Source of the DNA: Seleniivibrio sp.
GTDB lineage: Bacteria; Chrysiogenota; Deferribacteres; Deferribacterales; Geovibrionaceae
Direction of reading: 5' to 3'
DNA: 64,000 bases
Assembly (NCBI RefSeq): GCF_021209385.1
Contig: NZ_JAJOIL010000005.1
Location: forward strand, 16,877-80,876
The notes under the pieces were generated by a model. That model was not told the origin of the DNA. It searched no databases and worked only from the letters and a program-made list of their open reading frames with translations. The position numbers and the translations under genes were made by a program. Each line of letters opens with the position of its first letter. Positions within the stretch are counted from its first letter, which is position 1. Of this stretch, positions 29,066 through 55,031 are shown one piece after another.

Positions 29066-29146
29066 CTCCCCCTTTATAAAAGGGGGATTAAGGGGGATTT
29101 AATTAAGAAAATCCACCCCGACCCTCCTTTGCTAAAGGAGGGAGGG
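29066..29146. repeat. Dispersed palindromic intergenic repeat, family A copy 1
   Basis: ccccctttataaaagggggattaagggggattt...aagaaaatccaccccgaccctcctttgctaaaggaggga. Confidence 0.85.
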
Positions 29147-42033: not shown

Positions 42034-43551
42034 TTATTCGTAAAGGATTCTTGCTTCAAGCTCTATGGGAATACCGAACGTATCGGTGAATATTTTGCTC
42101 TTTTCGCTGAAAGCATGTTTCTCAAGGAACGCCATGCATTTACATTTTGCCTTTATGACAACCTTTCCGGTCTGTATGTCCACGTCAAAATCCTGAACAA
42201 TGTTCATATGAGATGCATCCAGCGAATCGGCTATTCTCAGTATGCTCACCAGTTTCTTAATAAGGAGCTGTTTCTCGATGGGGAAATAGTGATATTTCTG
42301 CTCAAACCACTTGTCCACGTCGCCGTTGTGCATCAGCACGAGATATGAGACGAGCTTAACCCTTTCACGCGGAAGCCCCGGAATCTGTAGAGACTGAACA
42401 AGGTAGTAAGAGTGCTGATTATGTCTGACAGAGTCGATATAATAGCCCACATCTGAAAGCACCGCCGCCGCTTCAAGTATGAATTTTTCCATTCTGCCCA
42501 GCGAGTGCAGAGGTTTTAAGGCATCAAACAGCTTCATGGAAAACCTTACCGTGGTGTCGGCATGCTGTCTGTCCATGTTGAAACGCTCGCCAAGTGCATA
42601 TACCGTGTTGCGTACGCGGGTGAAAAATCCGCGGTCGCGCACTGTCTTAGTGTGGAAAAGACTGAGCATGTGGGGGAACGACATCCGCGAAAACCGAACG
42701 TGGTCAGTGCCGATGAAGTCCATCAGTTTCAGGTACGTCACCAGCGTCGGAACAAGAACGCTTGCCTCATCCCTGCGGATATTCATAACCGTTTGTATCG
42801 TGTCTCTGGGAAGCTGTTTAACACGCTCGTACAGTTCTTCGAGCTGTTTTCTTGAGAGCATTGTCTTTTTCGGCTGAAAGATGTTCAGAAGAACGTTCAG
42901 CGATGAACCCGCACTGACGAAATATTTCAGTTTGCAACCGGCAGGAAGCGCACTTTTCATGGAATAGCACATCTTCTCGACGTACTGCTCGTAAGCCTTA
43001 TATCTTATTCTGGCGGGAATATCTCCGAAGATACGGCGAAGACGCAGCGACCCGTAAGGAAGAGCGCCTGAATAGACATTCTGTTCGTCTTTCAATATCG
43101 CCATGGCAATGTTGCCGCTGGAAATATTTGCCAACAGAACGCCGGCTTTCTCGTAATCGTCAAAATTTTCTATATCATTCTTAACACTTACAAATTTAAT
43201 ATATATTTCATCAGATGGCTGGATAACCTCAAGCTCAATGCCTGTTTCCTGACGGATATGGTTGATAAAGAAAGCCTGATTGCCCGCCTCGCGCACACCG
43301 CTGGTGCAGACGGCGGCATAGTTTTTCTTTATGCCGTATTCATCCATTTTGGTCTTGAATTTTTTCAGTATGTCGGTGGCGGCGTATACGCTTTCCAGCG
43401 AGATGTACCCTTTTGTAAATGTGTCCCTGCCCAGCCTGAAAGGCTTGATCAGATATTCAAGGGTGCGTTCCTCTCCTTTAACATATTCGCTTATGTGCAT
43501 TCTGAAGGCGCTGGCGCCTATGTTTATGGCAGCAAAGATTCCGTTCTTCAT
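42034..43551 (-). CDS. Ppx/GppA-like protein with degenerate phosphatase motifs
   Basis: AAINIGASAFRMHISEY in place of DIGSNS; NISSGN in place of DIGGGS; C-terminal HD-like HNQHSYYLVQS retained. Confidence 0.8.
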   Translation of the reverse strand: MKNGIFAAINIGASAFRMHISEYVKGEERTLEYLIKPFRLGRDTFTKGYISLESVYAATDILKKFKTKMDEYGIKKNYAAVCTSGVREAGNQAFFINHIRQETGIELEVIQPSDEIYIKFVSVKNDIENFDDYEKAGVLLANISSGNIAMAILKDEQNVYSGALPYGSLRLRRIFGDIPARIRYKAYEQYVEKMCYSMKSALPAGCKLKYFVSAGSSLNVLLNIFQPKKTMLSRKQLEELYERVKQLPRDTIQTVMNIRRDEASVLVPTLVTYLKLMDFIGTDHVRFSRMSFPHMLSLFHTKTVRDRGFFTRVRNTVYALGERFNMDRQHADTTVRFSMKLFDALKPLHSLGRMEKFILEAAAVLSDVGYYIDSVRHNQHSYYLVQSLQIPGLPRERVKLVSYLVLMHNGDVDKWFEQKYHYFPIEKQLLIKKLVSILRIADSLDASHMNIVQDFDVDIQTGKVVIKAKCKCMAFLEKHAFSEKSKIFTDTFGIPIELEARILYE

Positions 43552-45074
43552 ACCAGCCTTACGGGGAGTTTTAAAAGCTTAACAAGCATGTCCCGATTTC
43601 TTTCAAAGTCTTTTATCTCAAGGGTGATGTCCTTGTCGGATATTGGCTTTATGTCTATGGAAACGTTTGTCACGGTGATCTCAAGTCTGTCTATCAGACC
43701 CTTGTGGGTTCTGTCCAGAGCGATGGCGAGCCTTAAAAGCGCCGCAAGTTTTTCAACGCGAAGCTGCATTGCAGGCGACAGAGAGATGAATTCGTCATGG
43801 GCGACCTTCGGCATACTCTTTCTGTGATATCTGGCTATGCTGGCAATCGCCTCTATCTCCTCGTGGGTATAGCCCACAAGTTCTGAATGTTTTATCATGT
43901 AGTAAGAATGTTTATGGTGCTTTGAATAGGCTATGTGCTTGCCGATGTCGCGAAGAAGAGCCGCCGCTTCAAGCAGAGCCCAGTCACGCTCTATCAGCCC
44001 CATACGGTCTTTCAGCCCGTCAAAAAGCATTTTTGCCAGCTTCTCAACCTGAAAAGCGCCCGCCTCGTCAAAATCGAACTTATTGCCTATCTCAACAAGC
44101 CTCGAATAGCGTACTCCGTCCATGCTGTTCTGAAACGGCAGTTCGATGCCCATCTTGTTTATGGTGTCTATGGTAAGCCCTGCGCGCAGTCCTCCTGTCA
44201 GGGTATAAAATCCGTCTATTCCCGTCTCTTCCAGTATCATATCCGTCTGAATTGCTGCGGAAAGTATGATATCCGCACGTTTCTCTTCCATCCCCTCTAT
44301 CTTTATGCGCTCTTCGTTGCTCTTCATTCTGATGTCGCTGATGAATTTTTTCAGAAACTTCCGCTCAACGTATTTAACAAGGCTGTCGCGAAGATTTTTA
44401 TCCTTATAGTGGCAGATATAACCGACGTTGTTCATAGAACCGCCGGTGCATATGACCATCTCAAGCCCTCTGCCCAATTTCATCTTGTCAATGAATTCCG
44501 CGATATGCTCTTTCATTGCAAGTATCTGTGCCGATGTCGGCGGGTCGCCTTCCAGAAATTCCCGCGTGAGTCTGTTGCATCCCAGCGGAAGGCTTTTTGC
44601 CTTTTCGACATCTCCGTTTCTGACAACGGTGTATTCGGCGCTTCCGCCGCCTATATCCGTTATGAGAGCATATCTGTCTTTCAGCTCAAAGTTTGCACTC
44701 GCCGCCAGATATGTCAGCCGCGCTTCCTCCTGTCCGCTGATAACCTCGATCTTTATTCCGCATTCCTGCTCTATAATATTAAGTGTCTCGCCCAGATTGT
44801 CCGCCTCGCGGAACGCCGCAGTGGCAATGGCGCGTATTGTTCTGCACCCTTTGCTCTCGGCAAGACGCCTGACATTATTAAGTGTGTCTACAAGTATCTC
44901 TATGGTCTCTTTTGGGAAATAGCCAAGGGTGTATATGGTGTCGCCAAGACGTATCATCTCTTTGTAGTCTTCAAGGACGCGGTAGCTTTTGTCCTTAACC
45001 TCGGAAATCTGTAGGCGGAGCGAATTGCTGCCGATGTCGGCAACCGCCACCCGAACGTTGTCGTTAGATGCCAT
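43548..45074 (-). CDS. ppx: Exopolyphosphatase/GppA phosphatase
   Basis: VADIGSNSLRLQI; ISGQEEARLTYLA; ITDIGGGSAEYTV; C-terminal HD-like domain. Confidence 0.93.
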   Translation of the reverse strand: MASNDNVRVAVADIGSNSLRLQISEVKDKSYRVLEDYKEMIRLGDTIYTLGYFPKETIEILVDTLNNVRRLAESKGCRTIRAIATAAFREADNLGETLNIIEQECGIKIEVISGQEEARLTYLAASANFELKDRYALITDIGGGSAEYTVVRNGDVEKAKSLPLGCNRLTREFLEGDPPTSAQILAMKEHIAEFIDKMKLGRGLEMVICTGGSMNNVGYICHYKDKNLRDSLVKYVERKFLKKFISDIRMKSNEERIKIEGMEEKRADIILSAAIQTDMILEETGIDGFYTLTGGLRAGLTIDTINKMGIELPFQNSMDGVRYSRLVEIGNKFDFDEAGAFQVEKLAKMLFDGLKDRMGLIERDWALLEAAALLRDIGKHIAYSKHHKHSYYMIKHSELVGYTHEEIEAIASIARYHRKSMPKVAHDEFISLSPAMQLRVEKLAALLRLAIALDRTHKGLIDRLEITVTNVSIDIKPISDKDITLEIKDFERNRDMLVKLLKLPVRLV

Positions 45075-45118
45075 TGTAACTCCAAATATCCATCAGAATT
45101 TCTTCTGTCTTAAGTATA

Positions 45119-46465
45119 TCAAATTCCGAGAGATTTTTTAACCCGTTTCCTGCCCTTGCGGAATATTCTGATAAACTCCACTGCGGTTTCCCTCTCCTGC
45201 GCCTTTTTCAGCGTAAGCACGGCAAGGATATACCCGCAGGCTGTAAGAACTTTCGCGTCCTTTTCCGCATTAAGTCTCTCCTGCATATGCACACACTGCA
45301 CGGAAAGGTCGTTGTATCTGCCCAGACTGTCCTGCAAAGCCCTCAGACGGGTCAGAACATCCGCAGTGTTCTCCTCTTTTATGAACAGCGTAAAGAATTC
45401 TATGCAGTAGCGCAGTTTTTTAAACGCTATCCGAACCGAATGTATCTGTTCGGCTGGAGTGTCTGCACCAATGCCGTCTGTGATCCCTTCCGCCAGACCG
45501 AATATTTTAGCAAGCGCCTTCTTAGCCGCTTTCTTTGTATTCACAAAACCTTTGCGCCCGATATGCGCACGGGATGATATCAGCTTTTCCCAGCCCGCAA
45601 GGTCAATATTATACTCTTCCGATGTCAGAAAATTTTTCAGTTTTTCATAGCTTTCGTCCCGTTCCCATCTGAAATGTTCCCGCAGAGGCGCAAGCGCATC
45701 CTTCATCTCGTCAGGGAGCAGTTCGTCGTAACATTCAAGCTCTTCCAGATACACGTCCATGTCCCTTGCTCTGCCGGTATATCCGCCGAGGGTACGGAAA
45801 AAATTCTTATAACGCGCCTCTTCCGCATCTTCATAAACGCCTTTCAGCATAGACATTGCAGACCTTGTTCTGCGCACGGAAACACGGAAATCGTGCAGGA
45901 ACTCCGAATCGTAACCGTTTATTATGCCGTCGGTGTTCAGCCGCATTATCTTTATCAGCTCCCCGTACACAGTTTCCATGGAATCATGAAGCACGGCGGA
46001 ATCATCCGCAGCGCACTGAACCCGTGTAGTGTAGCTCATCATGGGGTCGCCTTTGCGTTTCACATATGCCAGAAGTCCTCCGCCGAAACTTTTCAGCTCT
46101 TCCATGCAGTAATGAAAAGCAAATTCGTCCTGTACCTCTGCGGTATAAACAATATATGATCCGGGAAGTGTATAGAGGATGCCTTTGATATCGTTCGCAG
46201 TGAATGAATGAACGGTTATGTCCACTGACATTTTTTCAAAGAGATGCCGCTTTTCCGATTGTCCGGAACAGTCGCCGTCTTTAACATCAGCATTGCCGTT
46301 AAAGAACACAGTGTCTTTTCCGTCACTGAAAAGCAGACATCCTGAGCGGATGAGCAGCCACTCGAAAGTGTCGTATATATTTGCCGTAAGATCTTTGTTC
46401 TTTCTGTATCTGAGCCTGAATTTTCTGTCCGATGCAGGTTTTACGTCTGAAATATAGTATGGCAT
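45119..46465 (-). CDS. CHAD domain-containing protein
   Basis: LHDFRVSVRRTRSAMSMLKGVY and second-half IHSVRIAFKKLRYCIEFF. Confidence 0.9.
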   Translation of the reverse strand: MPYYISDVKPASDRKFRLRYRKNKDLTANIYDTFEWLLIRSGCLLFSDGKDTVFFNGNADVKDGDCSGQSEKRHLFEKMSVDITVHSFTANDIKGILYTLPGSYIVYTAEVQDEFAFHYCMEELKSFGGGLLAYVKRKGDPMMSYTTRVQCAADDSAVLHDSMETVYGELIKIMRLNTDGIINGYDSEFLHDFRVSVRRTRSAMSMLKGVYEDAEEARYKNFFRTLGGYTGRARDMDVYLEELECYDELLPDEMKDALAPLREHFRWERDESYEKLKNFLTSEEYNIDLAGWEKLISSRAHIGRKGFVNTKKAAKKALAKIFGLAEGITDGIGADTPAEQIHSVRIAFKKLRYCIEFFTLFIKEENTADVLTRLRALQDSLGRYNDLSVQCVHMQERLNAEKDAKVLTACGYILAVLTLKKAQERETAVEFIRIFRKGRKRVKKSLGI

Positions 46466-46467
46466 GA

Positions 46468-46923
46468 TTAAAGCAGAGCCTTCTGCTGTATGAGGTTCAC
46501 AAGAACGCTGTCGTCTATATGGGCTATGGAACCTTTCTTAAGCTGGAGCCGCAGAGCCTTTCCGCCTGTTATGAATGATATTACTTCCGAAAGATCCGGT
46601 TCGTGTCCCACAACAGCCAGAGGCGATGCATGACGCCAGTCGGAGATCGTCTCCAGATAATCCTTTATCTTTGCTCCTGGGTTCAGACGCTCCTTAATGT
46701 CGTATTTGACACCGCATATCTCAGATATTATGGATGCCGTTTCAACCGAACGCACAGCGGCGGATGTCAGAACAGCCGCAGGTTTATCATAAATATTAAA
46801 GAAACGGGTAAAGGCTCGTTTTGCCCTGACCTTCCCTTTTTCAGTCAGCGGACGGTCAAGGTCTCTTCCCTTAAACGCCTCTCTCTCTTCCGCGTGACCG
46901 TGGCGAATCAGATAAACTATCAT
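46468..46923 (-). CDS. sixA: SixA-type histidine phosphatase
   Basis: MIVYLIRHGHAEERE, LTSAAVRSVETASII, VVGHEPDLSEVI. Confidence 0.9.
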   Translation of the reverse strand: MIVYLIRHGHAEEREAFKGRDLDRPLTEKGKVRAKRAFTRFFNIYDKPAAVLTSAAVRSVETASIISEICGVKYDIKERLNPGAKIKDYLETISDWRHASPLAVVGHEPDLSEVISFITGGKALRLQLKKGSIAHIDDSVLVNLIQQKALL

Positions 46924-48870: not shown

Positions 48871-48899
48871 TTGACACTAAAATTAATTTACGAAATAAT
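48871..48899 (+). promoter_or_regulatory. Sigma70-type promoter candidate
   Basis: TTGACA (48871-48876) - 17 nt - AATAAT (48894-48899). Confidence 0.65.
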
Positions 48900-48905
48900 C
48901 TATTC

Positions 48906-48980
48906 ATGAAAATGAACAGAACTTTCACAGAAACCTCTTTTTTCTTTTTTGGTTTCTTTTGGTGCTCAGCCTCTGAGTAG
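48906..48980 (+). CDS. Putative Phe-rich attenuation leader peptide
   Basis: ATG...TAG encodes MKMNRTFTETSFFFFGFFWCSASE*; followed by alternative hairpins and terminator. Confidence 0.55.
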   Translation: MKMNRTFTETSFFFFGFFWCSASE

Positions 48981-49011
48981 ACCGTGGAGTTCTGCACGAT
49001 AAGCTTGCAAG

Positions 49012-49045
49012 GGGCTGTGAGAACGAACTCACAGCCCTTTTTTTT
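49012..49045 (+). terminator. Rho-independent terminator within the leader (candidate attenuator)
   Basis: GGGCTGTGAG-aacgaa-CTCACAGCCC (10-bp perfect stem) + 8 T. Confidence 0.92.
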
Positions 49046-49086
49046 GGCTTGGTATCACAGTGTAAATATATAATCGGAGGTAAACG

Positions 49087-50199
49087 ATGAAAAAAACGGT
49101 AATTACGATTCTTATGCTTCTTGTCTCGGTATGCGCCTACGCCGAGATAAAGATCGGTGCTCTTCTGGCGCTCTCAGGTCCTATTTCAAACCTTGGAAAA
49201 CCCGGTCAGGAGATCATCGACGGTGTCATCGCCGAGGCAAACAAAACGAACATGCTGGGCGAAAAGATAACTGTAGTGTCCTATGATACTCAGTCGCTTC
49301 CGGACAGAGCGCAGACATATGCGAAAAAGCTCATCGCAAAGGACAGGGTTAACGTTATCGTGGGTCCCAACGGAACGGGCGAGGCGCTCTCTGTCTTAGG
49401 CGAAGCGATGTCCTCCAAAACGCCGATGATGGCATTCGCCGGAGGAACATCAGTTGTAATGCCTGTCCGCCCCTATATTTTCAAATCCCCCCAGACAACC
49501 ACAACAGCAATCGAAAAAGCTTTCAACTATCTGAAGAAAAAAGGAATAACAAAAATTGCAGTCGCAGCTGACGCAACGGGTTTCGGTCAGGACGGTCTCG
49601 ACCAGATTAATAAATATTCCAAAGGTTTTACTATCACAGGCATTGAGAAGTTCAACGCAACCGATAACGACGTGACAACACAGATGTCAAAACTGCTCTC
49701 TGCAAAACCGCAGGCGGTTGTCATCTGGACAGTGGGCAGAGCGGGCGCAATAGCTGCAAAAAGTCTCCGCGCACTCGACCCAAACATTCTTATGGTTCAG
49801 TCACACGGGATCGCGGACAACTCATACCTTAAACTGGCAGGTGCTGCCGCAGAAAACACCATCATGCCCTCGGTCAAACTGACAGTGGCATCAAGCATAC
49901 CCGCAAGCGACCCGCAGAAAAAAGCTATCGACCTTTTCGTTAAAAAATACGGCAAACTCATAGATGAAACGTCCGTACACGCAAGCTATGCATACGACGG
50001 TATAAACATTGTCCTTGCCGCCCTGAAAAAAGCTAAAGCAGAAAAAATACCTCTCCAGCAGGCGATGGAAAAGATAACCAACTTTGTCGGTGTAACAGGC
50101 GTTTACAACATGAGCAAATCTGACCACTGCGGTCTTGACCTCTCTTCAATGGTCATTGTCAAGGTGAAAGACGGCAAGTTTGTTCTCGAAGAAATGTGA
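49087..50199 (+). CDS. Branched-chain/aromatic amino-acid type ABC transporter substrate-binding protein (Liv family), copy 1
   Basis: Signal peptide; EIKIGALLALSGPISNLGKPGQEIIDGVIAEANK; SD cggagg. Confidence 0.9.
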   Translation: MKKTVITILMLLVSVCAYAEIKIGALLALSGPISNLGKPGQEIIDGVIAEANKTNMLGEKITVVSYDTQSLPDRAQTYAKKLIAKDRVNVIVGPNGTGEALSVLGEAMSSKTPMMAFAGGTSVVMPVRPYIFKSPQTTTTAIEKAFNYLKKKGITKIAVAADATGFGQDGLDQINKYSKGFTITGIEKFNATDNDVTTQMSKLLSAKPQAVVIWTVGRAGAIAAKSLRALDPNILMVQSHGIADNSYLKLAGAAAENTIMPSVKLTVASSIPASDPQKKAIDLFVKKYGKLIDETSVHASYAYDGINIVLAALKKAKAEKIPLQQAMEKITNFVGVTGVYNMSKSDHCGLDLSSMVIVKVKDGKFVLEEM

Positions 50200-50211
50200 T
50201 TTTCATATTAT

Positions 50212-50246
50212 AAAGGCTGCAGAATACACTGCGGCCTTTATTTTTT
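50212..50246 (+). terminator. Hairpin terminator between the two binding-protein genes
   Basis: AAAGGCTGCAG-aataca-CTGCGGCCTTT-aTTTTTT (one G-T wobble). Confidence 0.8.
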
Positions 50247-50256
50247 GGAGGAAAAT

Positions 50257-51369
50257 ATGAAGAAAGTTCTCATAACTACATCTGTGCTTCTTCTCAGCAT
50301 ATCTGCATATGCAGAGGTGAAGATAGGTGCGCTGCTGGCTCTTACAGGTCCCATATCTAACATCGGCAAACCCTCGCAGGAGATACTTGAAGGTGTTATC
50401 GCCGACGCGAACAAAGCAAACTTCATGGGCGAAAAGATCACCCTTGTCTCATATGACACACAGGGGATGCCCGACAAAACGATGATGTTCGCAAAAAAAT
50501 TAATAAACAAAGACAAGGTTGACGTTATCGTGGGTCCCACGTCCACAGGCGAGGCGATGTCAGTTATCGGCACCATCATGGAAGCCCAGACACCCACAAT
50601 GGGATTCGTCGGCGGAACTCCTCCTGTTGAGCCGGTACGTCAGTACATGTTCAAATCACCGCAGAAAACATCCACTGCTGTTGAAAAAACCTTCGGCTAT
50701 CTGAAAAAGAAAGGCTGGACAAAGATAGGCGTTGTTGTGGATGCAACCGGTTTCGGTCAGGACGGACTTGACCAGATAAACAAATACGCCGCCGGTTTCA
50801 CAATCACAGGCGTTGAAAAGTTCAACATGACAGACACCGACATGACAACACAGATGAAAAAGATACTGGACACAAAACCTCAGGCGATTGTGGTGTGGAC
50901 AGTGGGCAAAGCGGGTGCAGTAGCCGCGAAGAGCCTGCGCGCACTGGATAATGACATCCCGCTGATCCAGTCACACGGCATAGCGGACTTCGCATACACA
51001 AAACTTGCAGGTGCGTCTGCGGAAGGTTCAATCATGCCCGCACTTAAGATCGTCGTCGCAAAACAGCTTCCTGCGAACGATCCCCAGAAAAAGGCAATAG
51101 ACCTTTTCAACAAACGCTACGGCAAACTGATAAATGAAACCTCCGTACACGCAATTTACGCATACGACGGTATAAACCTGATGCTGAACGCTATGAAACG
51201 CGCCAAAAACGAAAAGATAAGCATCGTTCAGGCGCTGGAAACAACAAAGAATTTCGCCGGAGCAACAGGCGTTTATAACATAACAAAAACAGACCACTGC
51301 GGACTGGATATGTCCTCTCTGGTGATGGTCAGAGTTAAGAACGGTCAGTTTGTTCTTGAAGATATGTAA
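50257..51369 (+). CDS. Liv-family ABC substrate-binding protein, copy 2
   Basis: MKKVLITTSVLLLSISAYAEVKIGALLALTGPISNIGKPSQEILEGVIADANK; strongly similar to copy 1; SD ggagg. Confidence 0.9.
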   Translation: MKKVLITTSVLLLSISAYAEVKIGALLALTGPISNIGKPSQEILEGVIADANKANFMGEKITLVSYDTQGMPDKTMMFAKKLINKDKVDVIVGPTSTGEAMSVIGTIMEAQTPTMGFVGGTPPVEPVRQYMFKSPQKTSTAVEKTFGYLKKKGWTKIGVVVDATGFGQDGLDQINKYAAGFTITGVEKFNMTDTDMTTQMKKILDTKPQAIVVWTVGKAGAVAAKSLRALDNDIPLIQSHGIADFAYTKLAGASAEGSIMPALKIVVAKQLPANDPQKKAIDLFNKRYGKLINETSVHAIYAYDGINLMLNAMKRAKNEKISIVQALETTKNFAGATGVYNITKTDHCGLDMSSLVMVRVKNGQFVLEDM

Positions 51370-51374
51370 AACTC

Positions 51375-51404
51375 AACAAGGGAGGCAATCGCCTCCCTTG
51401 TTTT
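51375..51404 (+). terminator. Rho-independent terminator
   Basis: AACAAGGGAGGC-aatc-GCCTCCCTTGTT followed by TT. Confidence 0.9.
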
Positions 51405-51406
51405 AA

Positions 51407-51499
51407 GTCCCACTTTGAAAAAGGGGGATTTAGGGGGATTTTCTTTCCGGCTTTTTAAGAACAAATCCACCCCGCCACTCCTTTGCTAAAGGAGGGAGA
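51407..51499. repeat. Dispersed palindromic intergenic repeat, family A copy 3
   Basis: cccactttgaaaaagggggatttagggggatttt...aacaaatccaccccgccactcctttgctaaaggaggga. Confidence 0.85.
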
Positions 51500-51575
51500 A
51501 AATCAGCTTTTTTCTTTAAATTCTTATTTCATTAGTGTACTATCTCATTCTGTCATTAATTTTACGGTGATTCAG

Positions 51576-53318
51576 ATGGTAAACGGTTTTTTTCTCGGCA
51601 ACGAACTGATTGCTCTTGCCGCTGTTGATTCGGGAGTTAAAAGCGCATACGCATATCCCGGAACCCCTTCAAGCGAGATACTTTTAGCTTTTTCAAAATT
51701 CGCACCGGAGCGCTATGCCCAATGGTCGCTGAATGAAAAGATAGCCCTTGAGCTTGCCGCAGGCGAAGCGATATCAGGTTCCTCCACACTCTGCTGTATG
51801 AAAATGGTGGGACTCAACGTCGCCGCCGATCCGCTTTTCAGCGTGGCATACACAGGTGTTGACGGTGCGATGGTGCTTGTGTCCGCGGACGATCCGGGAC
51901 CTTACAGCAGCCAGACGGAGCAGGACAGCCGCATGTATGCCGTAAGCGCAAAAATGCCCGTTCTCGACCCGTGCAACCCGCAGGATGCTTACCGTCTGAC
52001 AATGCTTGGATATCAGATATCCGAAAAATACCGCCTTCCCGTGATGGTCAGACCCGTTATGCGCGTCTGCCATTCCCGCCAGAATTTTGAGGCTGGCGAC
52101 GTTTCCAAGGAACCGATTCATGGACAGTTCAGTAAAAATACTCCGCGCTGGGCGGCAACACCGAAATTCCGCCGCATCCTCCATGAAAAGCTTAACAAGA
52201 ACCTTGACCTGCTCGCCGCAGAGATGGCTCCTAAAATACCGGAAAAAAGATACGACATGGCTGTTGTTGCCTCAGGCTACGCATACGCCATGGCAAAAGA
52301 CGTCATAAATGAAATGAACCTTCCCTTCGACATGATAAAGGTTGATATGCCCTTCCCTCTGGACAAACAGTTTGTCATAGAGGCGGAGATGGTATACGAC
52401 CGCATCGTCGTACTTGAAGAAACCTTCCCTGTTATCGAACATAACTTTACAATAAAGACCGTGGGCAGGTTAACGGGACTTGTACCATCCGAAGGGGAAC
52501 TTACAGTGGACATCATCGCCGATATACTTTTCAAAACGGCGGGGATGACACGCAAAACCGATAAAGCCGAAATAACCACTTCCGAGACACCTGTCCAGCT
52601 CAAACCTCGCCTCTGCGCGGGATGCGGACACAGACCCGCTTTCTATGCCATGAAGCTTGCCGCTCCCAGCGGTATCTTCCCCGGAGATATAGGCTGTTAC
52701 ACTCTCGGCGTAAACCTTGACGCAGTTGACACATGCATCTGTATGGGCGCATCCGTAACTTTTGCGGAAGCAATGAAACGCTCCAACCCGGACAGACCCG
52801 TCATATGCACCATAGGCGATTCAACATTCTTCCACACAGGTGTCGCGGGACTTACAAACGCCGTGGTCAACAGCGCTCCTATAGTCGTGGCGATACTTGA
52901 CAACGAAACCACAGCCATGACAGGCTTTCAGCCTGTACCCCACAAAACAGGCAAGCTTACTATTGAGCAGGCGTGTCAGGGTGCAGGCGTCAGGCACATA
53001 GCGAAAGTTGATCCCTATAATCTGAAAAAAGGCGTTGAAGCACTCAAACAGGCGCTTGCATACGCGCATACGGATAATTCCCCCGCAGTGGTGATCTTCA
53101 CTAAAGAATGTGTCACCAAAACCCGCTATAAAAATAAAAAAATTGCTGAAATAACAGATGCATGCACCGACTGCACCATATGCTATGAAAAGTTCGAGTG
53201 TCCGGCGATATACAGAGACAAAGCGAAACGCATGGCAAAGATTGACGAAACTGCATGCGTGGGCTGTATGGTCTGTATTCAGGTATGCCCGCAGAAAGCT
53301 ATCGGGGTGAAGAAATGA
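51576..53318 (+). CDS. iorA: Indolepyruvate ferredoxin oxidoreductase, alpha subunit
   Basis: AYAYPGTPSSEILLAF, CAGCGHRPAFYAMK, CTIGDSTFFHTGVAGL, C-terminal CTDCTICYEKFECPA / CVGCMVCIQVCP. Confidence 0.95.
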   Translation: MVNGFFLGNELIALAAVDSGVKSAYAYPGTPSSEILLAFSKFAPERYAQWSLNEKIALELAAGEAISGSSTLCCMKMVGLNVAADPLFSVAYTGVDGAMVLVSADDPGPYSSQTEQDSRMYAVSAKMPVLDPCNPQDAYRLTMLGYQISEKYRLPVMVRPVMRVCHSRQNFEAGDVSKEPIHGQFSKNTPRWAATPKFRRILHEKLNKNLDLLAAEMAPKIPEKRYDMAVVASGYAYAMAKDVINEMNLPFDMIKVDMPFPLDKQFVIEAEMVYDRIVVLEETFPVIEHNFTIKTVGRLTGLVPSEGELTVDIIADILFKTAGMTRKTDKAEITTSETPVQLKPRLCAGCGHRPAFYAMKLAAPSGIFPGDIGCYTLGVNLDAVDTCICMGASVTFAEAMKRSNPDRPVICTIGDSTFFHTGVAGLTNAVVNSAPIVVAILDNETTAMTGFQPVPHKTGKLTIEQACQGAGVRHIAKVDPYNLKKGVEALKQALAYAHTDNSPAVVIFTKECVTKTRYKNKKIAEITDACTDCTICYEKFECPAIYRDKAKRMAKIDETACVGCMVCIQVCPQKAIGVKK

Positions 53319-53824
53319 TTCAGGGCGTAATTTGCGGAAAAGGCGGACAGGGTGTCATAACTCTTAATGCCATGATAGGAACTCTGGCAGCTAACATGGG
53401 AATACCTGCCGTTTCTGCGGAAACACACGGCATGGCTATGCGCGGAGGTTCAGTCGCAACATACATAAAAATAGGCGAATGTCTCAGCGCCGCAGTTGCG
53501 GAAGGTTCTGCAGATTTCATTATCAGCCTAACAAAAGACGAGGCGCTCAGAAATCTCAACTATATAAAAAAAGACGGGGTAATCATCGTAGACACGGATG
53601 AACCCTTTGACATAAGCGGAGTTAAAATAATCTCCCTGCCGGCTTCCGACATGGCGGAAAAAGAATTCGGCGGCAGGATATACGGCGGTCAGGTGCTTCT
53701 TGGCATCTTGCTCGGCTGTTTTGACGGTATTGACACCGAAAAAGCGTTGGAAATACTGGAAACAGCCCCAAAAATAAGCATCCGCGCCATAGAATACGGA
53801 GTCAGATATGCACAAACTCACTGA
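53315..53824 (+). CDS. iorB: Indolepyruvate ferredoxin oxidoreductase, beta subunit
   Basis: GVICGKGGQGVITLNAMIGTLAANMGIPAVSAETHGMAMRGGSVATYIKIG; ATGA overlap with iorA. Confidence 0.95.
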   Translation: MIQGVICGKGGQGVITLNAMIGTLAANMGIPAVSAETHGMAMRGGSVATYIKIGECLSAAVAEGSADFIISLTKDEALRNLNYIKKDGVIIVDTDEPFDISGVKIISLPASDMAEKEFGGRIYGGQVLLGILLGCFDGIDTEKALEILETAPKISIRAIEYGVRYAQTH

Positions 53825-55031
53825 CATACAGCTTTTAAAGCTTGGTACCACACTGCATCATATAAAAAAGGCGAACCCCTTCTATTTCCAAAGATACGAA
53901 ACGGACAGAATCACTTCATATGAAGACCTCACAAAAATGCCCTTCATCACGAAAGATATACTTCGTCAGGGATACCCCTTTGCGTATGCGTGTGCAGACA
54001 CAAAAAACTGTATGCGGATGCATATGTCAAGCGGTACCACAGGCAAACCTATTATAAACCCCATGACCGAAGGGGACGTTAACCAATGGGGCGAGATAAT
54101 GGCGCGCTGCTACACCACAGCAGGCGTAACCTGTGAGGACACAGTCCAGATAACCCCTTCGTTCGGGCTTTTCAACGGCGGTTTCGGCTTCCACTACGGC
54201 GCGGAAAGGCTGAAAAGCTTCATAATACCAATGGGTGCCGGACGCTCACTGCTCCAGCTCCAGTTCATAAAAGACCTTGAGACTACCTGCCTCTGCGCAA
54301 TCGCTTCCTATCCTCTGAGGCTTATTGAAGTTGCGAAACAGGAAGGCTTTAACTTTAAAGAGACGAAACTCCGCGTGGGCATATTCGGTGCTGAAACATG
54401 GACGGAAGGCATACGCAGGCGTATCGAAAAAGAGATGGGCATAGAGACGTTCGACATCATCGGCATGACAGAAACCGGCGGCGTGGGACTTGGAATAGAC
54501 TGCAAAGACCACAGCGGGATACACGTCTGGGACGACCATTATATTGTCGAGATAGTCGATCCGGAAACTGGCGAACCCCTGCCCGACGGTGTTGAAGGCG
54601 AAATGGTGGTGACAACGCTCACGCGTGAAGGTCTTCCGCTCATACGCTACCGCACGAGAGACATCACAAAAGTAATAAGCCGCGAACCCTGTAAATGCGG
54701 TCTGCATACGATGAAGATAGCCAGACTGAAAGGCAGAACGGACGACATGCTCAAGGTGAAAGGTGTAAACTTCTATCCGGCACAGATAGAATCCATACTG
54801 ATGGAATTCACCGAAATCGGTGAGGAATACCGGATAATACTTGATAAAAAGAAGGGCAAAGGGGATGTCACCCTAGCCGTTGAAACCAATACGATAACCG
54901 ACGACGCAAAAGACAGACTTGATACGAAGCTTTATGACTTCCTCGGATTCCGCGTGGACGTGCAGTATCTTAAACCGGGTACTCTGGAGCGCTCCGCAGG
55001 AAAAGCCATCAGGGTTGTTGATAACAGATAG
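53808..55031 (+). CDS. paaK: Phenylacetate-CoA ligase
   Basis: MHMSSGTTGKPIINPMTEGD; MTETGGVGLGIDCKDHSGIHVWDDHYIVEIVDPETGEPLPDG. Confidence 0.95.
   Translation: MHKLTDIQLLKLGTTLHHIKKANPFYFQRYETDRITSYEDLTKMPFITKDILRQGYPFAYACADTKNCMRMHMSSGTTGKPIINPMTEGDVNQWGEIMARCYTTAGVTCEDTVQITPSFGLFNGGFGFHYGAERLKSFIIPMGAGRSLLQLQFIKDLETTCLCAIASYPLRLIEVAKQEGFNFKETKLRVGIFGAETWTEGIRRRIEKEMGIETFDIIGMTETGGVGLGIDCKDHSGIHVWDDHYIVEIVDPETGEPLPDGVEGEMVVTTLTREGLPLIRYRTRDITKVISREPCKCGLHTMKIARLKGRTDDMLKVKGVNFYPAQIESILMEFTEIGEEYRIILDKKKGKGDVTLAVETNTITDDAKDRLDTKLYDFLGFRVDVQYLKPGTLERSAGKAIRVVDNR

Follow-up and report, generated by a model that had tools for sequence, protein, structure and literature searches.

Two genes for Liv-type binding proteins (SBP1 and SBP2) in the genus Seleniivibrio (Geovibrionaceae, Deferribacterales, Deferribacterota) are preceded by a promoter-like site, a short Phe-rich ORF and an intrinsic terminator. 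We read this unit as a ribosome-mediated transcription attenuator that would sense charged tRNAPhe and control both genes, and from comparative sequence analysis we give this reading a probability of about 0.85. The unit lies in a stretch of 64,000 nucleotides, hereafter the window, from a genome of 2.9 Mb in 42 contigs; coordinates are those of the plus strand of the window unless otherwise indicated. A Phe-codon transcription attenuator had been proposed for this DNA in an earlier note, and the proposal is upheld by the genus-wide occurrence of the unit, by the survival of the Phe run under sequence divergence and by the presence in the phylum of clear Trp attenuators of the same layout before trpE.

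Architecture of the leader region

The unit begins with the promoter-like sequence TTGACA-N17-AATAAT (48871-48899), which matches the consensus at 11 of 12 positions and in which a 17-nt spacer separates the -35 hexamer TTGACA (48871-48876) from the -10 hexamer AATAAT (48894-48899). It is followed by a leader ORF of 24 codons (48906-48980) encoding MKMNRTFTETSFFFFGFFWCSASE and ending in a stop codon, with seven Phe codons (F7, F12-F15, F17 and F18) and a Trp at codon 19; the putative control codons, FFFFGFF plus Trp, occupy codons 12-19 (48939-48962). Both the promoter and the 24-codon ORF with its seven Phe and one Trp had been described previously and were recovered as such. No Shine-Dalgarno sequence was found upstream of the leader ATG at 48906. 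The earlier caveat that the leader would be leaderless was well taken: the ATG lies 6 nt past the end of the -10 hexamer, and this distance is 6-7 nt in each of the five genus genomes (7 nt in the one termed G001), so that the leader mRNA is probably leaderless.

Downstream of the stop codon, a terminator stem of 13 pairs (G-U allowed) with a loop of 6 spans positions 49009-49040, and its U-tract extends to about 49045. Its 5' arm and loop are designated segment 3 (49009-49024), and segment 4, together with the U-tract, occupies 49028-49045. The terminator was previously given as a 10-bp stem at 49012-49045; its existence stands, albeit with a slightly longer stem. A Liv-type binding protein had also been placed behind it, and the start of SBP1 at 49087 was confirmed, preceded by the Shine-Dalgarno sequence GGAGG at 49076-49080. 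Since none of the Rfam covariance models for leaders, T-boxes or riboswitches matched the leader region, no catalogued riboswitch or T-box explains it.

The promoter-like match alone is within chance expectation (2 found versus 3.3 expected) and the Phe count of one leader sequence is only weakly unusual. In dinucleotide shuffles, an open frame equaled or exceeded the observed number of Phe codons in 2.1% of cases for G000, 0.42% for G004, 0.18% for G001 and about 10% each for G002 and G003, percentages that are each moderate when taken singly and that are mutually dependent across these five genus genomes. The free leader RNA folds far better than shuffled sequences (z -4.84), an excess owed partly, or even in large measure, to the terminator. 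The strong evidence is conservation across the genus, rather than the promoter match or the Phe count. At the level of the window's genome, the pattern TTGAC-N17-19-NATNNT-N5-8-ATG occurs at 41 places, as compared to 20 in a reversed control, and only two of these 41 start a short ORF that has a terminator behind it, namely the Phe leader and a leader before trpE.

Conservation of the leader within Seleniivibrio

By searching 60 relatives with SBP1, we found the two SBP genes side by side in each of the five genus genomes (G000-G004); in G003 the locus is on the minus strand. Alignment of the leaders revealed that TTGACA, the -10 hexamer, the 17-nt spacing, the open Phe-rich ORF, its Phe run, TGG, TCA, the stop codon and the terminator with its U-tract are present in five out of five genomes, which represent only about three independent lineages. 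Whether the Phe ORF is conserved among orthologs was the check suggested in the earlier note, and the ORF and the Phe run proved to be kept throughout, including in the divergent G001. In the latter, whose SBP1 is 70% identical, the leader peptide is MIENNVNTLFSGFFFSFFFCFWHSDCHE; it retains its Phe-rich character and the Trp codon despite changed spacing and codon order, which argues for selection acting on the Phe codons and not on T-rich DNA. A covariance model built on the entire leader gave strong matches limited to the five genus genomes, and several weak matches elsewhere precede trpE.

The Phe leader is absent at the 55% identical SBP homologues of family f8 (L006 and L007). Upstream of the SBP gene at these two minus-strand loci, a promoter-like site with TTGAC occurs together with the palindrome TTAACC...GGTTAA, an arrangement that suggests repressor control instead of a Phe leader. 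Neither pheA, pheS, the order-wide second iorA nor the Ior orthologues of other families were found to be preceded by a Phe leader and, given its absence before pheA and pheS, Phe attenuation does not appear to be a general regulon in these organisms.

Alternative pairings of the leader RNA

When the free RNA is folded, a segment of the early ORF (segment 1, 48917-48928) pairs with positions 48984-48994 just 3' of the stop codon, and the terminator also forms. The partner belongs to segment 2 (48984-48997), a candidate antiterminator arm. Throughout the genus alignment, 89% of the cells of this 1:2 helix are paired and three pairs exhibit two-sided changes; its covariation score, which derives from five related sequences of few lineages, was reached by 4 of 500 shuffles, and the best slid version of the helix was only 51% paired. 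We regard the 1:2 helix as supported, albeit not proven, and it may play a part in termination without translation. For the terminator helix, conservation reaches 97%.

The pairings that would compete with the terminator are of a different standing. Two of them had been put forward, GTTCT(G)CAC with GTGAGAAC and CTCAGCC with GGCTGTGAG, and both can form. The former is possible in G000, with wobble in G002 and G003, and in a shorter form in G004, and is replaced in G001 by a different, co-located pairing; no two-sided (compensatory) change was detected in it on the genus alignment. Compared with shuffles, the duplex between the spacer and the terminator arm reaches a fraction of 0.17 in G000 and beats the shuffles only in G001. 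It is to be noted that the Trp leaders of the genus, described below, perform no better in this assay (about 0.15-0.17), which makes it a weak test and not contrary evidence. An alternative antiterminator pairing, CAGCC with GGCTG, could originate from the ORF end and is seen in a partial fold of G000. Candidate antiterminators can thus be drawn in all five genomes, clearly above shuffles only in G001. Of the 1:2 / 2:3 / 3:4 scheme of the earlier note, the terminator is sound, but its exact pairs did not find support and the 1:2 helix between 48917-48928 and 48984-48994 is the better one. The terminator and the general layout are directly seen, and an antiterminator is predicted.

Trp leaders of the same layout precede trpE in Deferribacterales

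Weak matches of the leader model outside the genus lay before trpE, and it is by this route that the trp leaders were found. In G009, for instance, such a match contains MKIAVNNTNVKNWWWRSTSL and is followed by a terminator. The trpE gene was identified in 25 of 31 genomes, and in 20 of these 25, the five genus genomes among them, a leader ORF containing TGGTGGTGG (Trp-Trp-Trp) is located shortly before hairpins with U-tracts. The trp leaders, which lie in the trpE upstream regions L121-L143 (for example L131 and L139), are followed by two such hairpins in series. All five genus trp leaders have a promoter-like match that places the ATG 5-6 nt past the -10, and at 15 of the 20 trp leaders the best-scoring match has an in-frame ATG 5-9 nt past the -10, a spacing of the leaderless type. 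No Rfam leader family matched the five trp leaders tested. Judged from these arrangements, with three consecutive Trp codons and terminator-type hairpins ahead of trpE in 20 of 25 genomes of the order, Deferribacterota evidently make use of ribosome-mediated attenuation.

Predicted mechanism and alternative explanations

The region upstream of SBP1 combines clustered Phe codons in a short upstream ORF (FFFFGFFW in G000, and likewise clustered across the five genomes), an intrinsic terminator between this ORF and the first gene and, as a pairing, the 1:2 helix. The following course of events would be consistent with this organization. Transcription would start with the A of the leader ATG or with a nucleotide beside it, and a ribosome would then translate the leader, translation being suggested by the conservation of the frame and by the leaderless-type start. 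When charged tRNAPhe is ample, the ribosome would reach the stop codon and cover segment 2, allowing the 13-bp terminator (49009-49045) to form and transcription to end. When it is scarce, the ribosome would stall within FFFFGFF and free segment 2 from segment 1; the freed segment 2, the end of the ORF, or both, could then pair with the terminator's 5' arm, with read-through into the SBP genes as the predicted outcome. Without any translation, the 1:2 helix would form and termination would follow. During Phe starvation the cell would in this manner capture more phenylalanine, or more aryl acids convertible to it, and the previously stated view that read-through upon Phe scarcity suits uptake fits these data.

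The same sequence could in principle arise by coincidence, as a T-rich tract ahead of a terminator that is constitutive or regulated in some other way, and with no translated leader. T-rich DNA does give Phe codons in any frame (five are found in another frame) and the ORF is devoid of a Shine-Dalgarno sequence, but the ORF, its frame and the Phe run would hardly be kept in five of five genomes, divergent DNA included, and the Phe and trp leaders would not be expected to share their promoter-to-ATG spacing; besides the trpE leader, this is moreover the sole leader of its kind in the window's genome. We therefore judge coincidence to be very improbable. A tnaC-like device, in which high free Phe would make the nascent Phe-rich peptide arrest its ribosome, block termination and induce uptake for catabolism, would account for the conserved Trp codon and the conserved ORF tail after the Phe run, and the gene content could be catabolic. 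The layout, however, equals that of the attenuators before trpE in these genomes, G001 has a rearranged Phe run, which a sequence-specific arrest peptide should not tolerate, and PaaA/PaaC-type genes are absent; we assign to it the same slight chance as to coincidence. Attenuation responding to charged tRNAPhe accordingly remains our preferred reading.

The binding-protein genes and the neighboring iorAB-paaK genes

Under the attenuator reading, SBP1 (49087-50199) would be the direct target, followed by SBP2 (50257-51369); both are Peripla_BP_6 proteins. A hairpin with a T-run separates the two genes (50210-50241), and a strong hairpin with T's, missed by the consensus scan, follows SBP2 as a possible terminator (51375-51402). 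Hairpins with differing sequences recur after the SBP genes in other genomes of the genus, and those after SBP1 and SBP2 are possibly partial terminators or 3'-end stabilizers. By profile comparison, the nearest solved relatives of SBP1 and SBP2 are 3sg0, 7ylt, 4dqd, 3uk0, 3tx6, 4jb0 and 3ukj, several of which are receptors of Rhodopseudomonas palustris whose structures were determined with aromatic acids, phenylpyruvate in the case of 4dqd. CouP, for which 3UK0 served as search model, is reported to bind ligands of the cinnamic acid type with nanomolar affinities (PMC3610893). In sequence, SBP1 and SBP2 resemble such aromatic-ligand binding proteins. No permease gene was seen beside them and, since the 14 Liv-type permease genes of the genome all lie elsewhere, with none on the window's contig, a shared permease may be their docking partner.

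Further downstream are genes for an iorA-like 2-oxoacid:ferredoxin oxidoreductase (51576-53318), an iorB-like subunit (53315-53824, counted from the second in-frame ATG) and a paaK-like aryl-CoA ligase (53808-55031). In G000, G004 and G001, the gap between SBP2 and iorA contains a strong T-tailed hairpin; in G002 and G003 it holds a repeat-like stretch, which differs from the one in the window. The repeat-like sequence AAAAAGGGGGATTTAGGGGGATTT occurs in this gap at 51418-51441 and again at 29077-29100 (chance expectation 0.00). Ahead of iorA, the noncoding stretch 51510-51575 is highly conserved in G000, G002, G003 and G004 and includes a -10-like TAGTAT; a consensus promoter scan found nothing there and iorA has no clear Shine-Dalgarno sequence. 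This stretch may be an iorA promoter that lacks a consensus -35. The iorA-iorB-paaK genes adjoin the SBP genes in five of five genus genomes and stand without them in G016, G018 and G025. On account of the hairpin, of the conserved promoter-like DNA and of this SBP-less occurrence, iorAB-paaK is probably a transcript separate from that of the SBP genes. The earlier note had the attenuator ahead of an aromatic-catabolism cluster; this part is not sustained, as the direct targets would be the two SBP genes, iorAB-paaK lies behind a hairpin and genes for aerobic phenylacetyl-CoA degradation are absent.

Regarding metabolism, PaaA/PaaC-type genes (PF05138) are absent from 9 of 9 genomes searched, each of which has one match to PF06050, a candidate gene of the benzoyl-CoA-reductase type that leaves some room for anaerobic degradation. 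Since pheA and trpE are present, the organism probably makes its own Phe and Trp. The sense of the switch, the aromatic-type SBPs and the absence of the aerobic Paa genes suit uptake or salvage over breakdown, and the iorAB-paaK enzymes could turn aryl acetates, once imported, into aryl pyruvates. Extending this, the attenuator might drive the uptake of aryl acids such as phenylacetate and phenylpyruvate, from which PaaK and Ior, working reductively, would rebuild Phe, with iorAB-paaK partly co-expressed by read-through. The similarity of the SBPs to solved aromatic-ligand receptors, the adjacency of iorAB-paaK to the SBP genes throughout the genus, the sense of the Phe switch and the lack of PaaA/PaaC-type genes speak for such a salvage. 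So does a precedent in M. maripaludis, where aryl acids reportedly feed a second aromatic amino acid pathway tied to indolepyruvate oxidoreductase (Porat et al. 2004, as cited in PMC4162585). Seleniivibrio has in common with that route an Ior-type enzyme, which in its case is encoded beside an aryl-CoA ligase and SBPs of the aromatic type, but it is a bacterium and the direction of its enzyme is hypothetical. To our knowledge, no Phe attenuator has been linked to the M. maripaludis route. The hairpin after SBP2, the promoter-like DNA before iorA, the occurrence of iorA-iorB-paaK without SBPs in G016, G018 and G025 and the presence of pheA all weigh against salvage, which we hold to be a tentative and rather doubtful extension. 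If it were nonetheless true, it would mean that a bacterium salvages an amino acid by a route that attenuation controls via a leaderless leader peptide.

Comparison with known attenuation systems

E. coli pheA and pheST are governed by Phe-codon leaders through ribosome-mediated attenuation, with read-through upon Phe-tRNA shortage. Attenuation of pheST is also mentioned in PMC1262725. The Seleniivibrio unit is similar in that a short ORF with a Phe run is soon followed by an intrinsic terminator and then by the first structural gene. It differs by belonging to another phylum, by a leader that is probably leaderless and has no Shine-Dalgarno sequence, by an added conserved Trp codon, by the lack of any Rfam leader match, and by its predicted targets, a pair of uptake receptors where E. 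coli has a biosynthetic enzyme or a tRNA synthetase.

The resemblance to the trp leaders of Deferribacterales includes the layout, the -10-to-ATG spacing, control codons at about codon 12 and a terminator about 25-35 nt past the stop codon, whereas the Seleniivibrio leader would sense Phe, has one terminator and not two serial hairpins, and is confined to one genus while trp leaders occur in most of the order. Precedents for a leaderless leader peptide are known from trpL of Sinorhizobium meliloti (PMC7298713) and ilvBNC of Corynebacterium glutamicum (PMC11857589), whose leader mRNAs begin, or are treated as beginning, at the AUG. These concern other phyla, other amino acids and biosynthetic targets, and the Seleniivibrio start is predicted from the promoter.

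A full-text search of open-licence papers retrieved no earlier report of leader-peptide attenuation in Deferribacterota, to which classic ribosome-mediated attenuation would now extend. Phe attenuation acting on uptake receptors and not on biosynthesis would offer a handle on the role of orphan aromatic-type SBPs, and the 20 trp leaders, mostly with leaderless-type spacing, make it possible to test throughout the order how attenuator leaders start.

Elsewhere in the window, the minus strand at 42034-46923 encodes, from translations inspected by eye, two Ppx/GppA-like proteins, a CHAD-like protein and an adjacent SixA-like phosphatase, and looks like a polyphosphate-related cluster.
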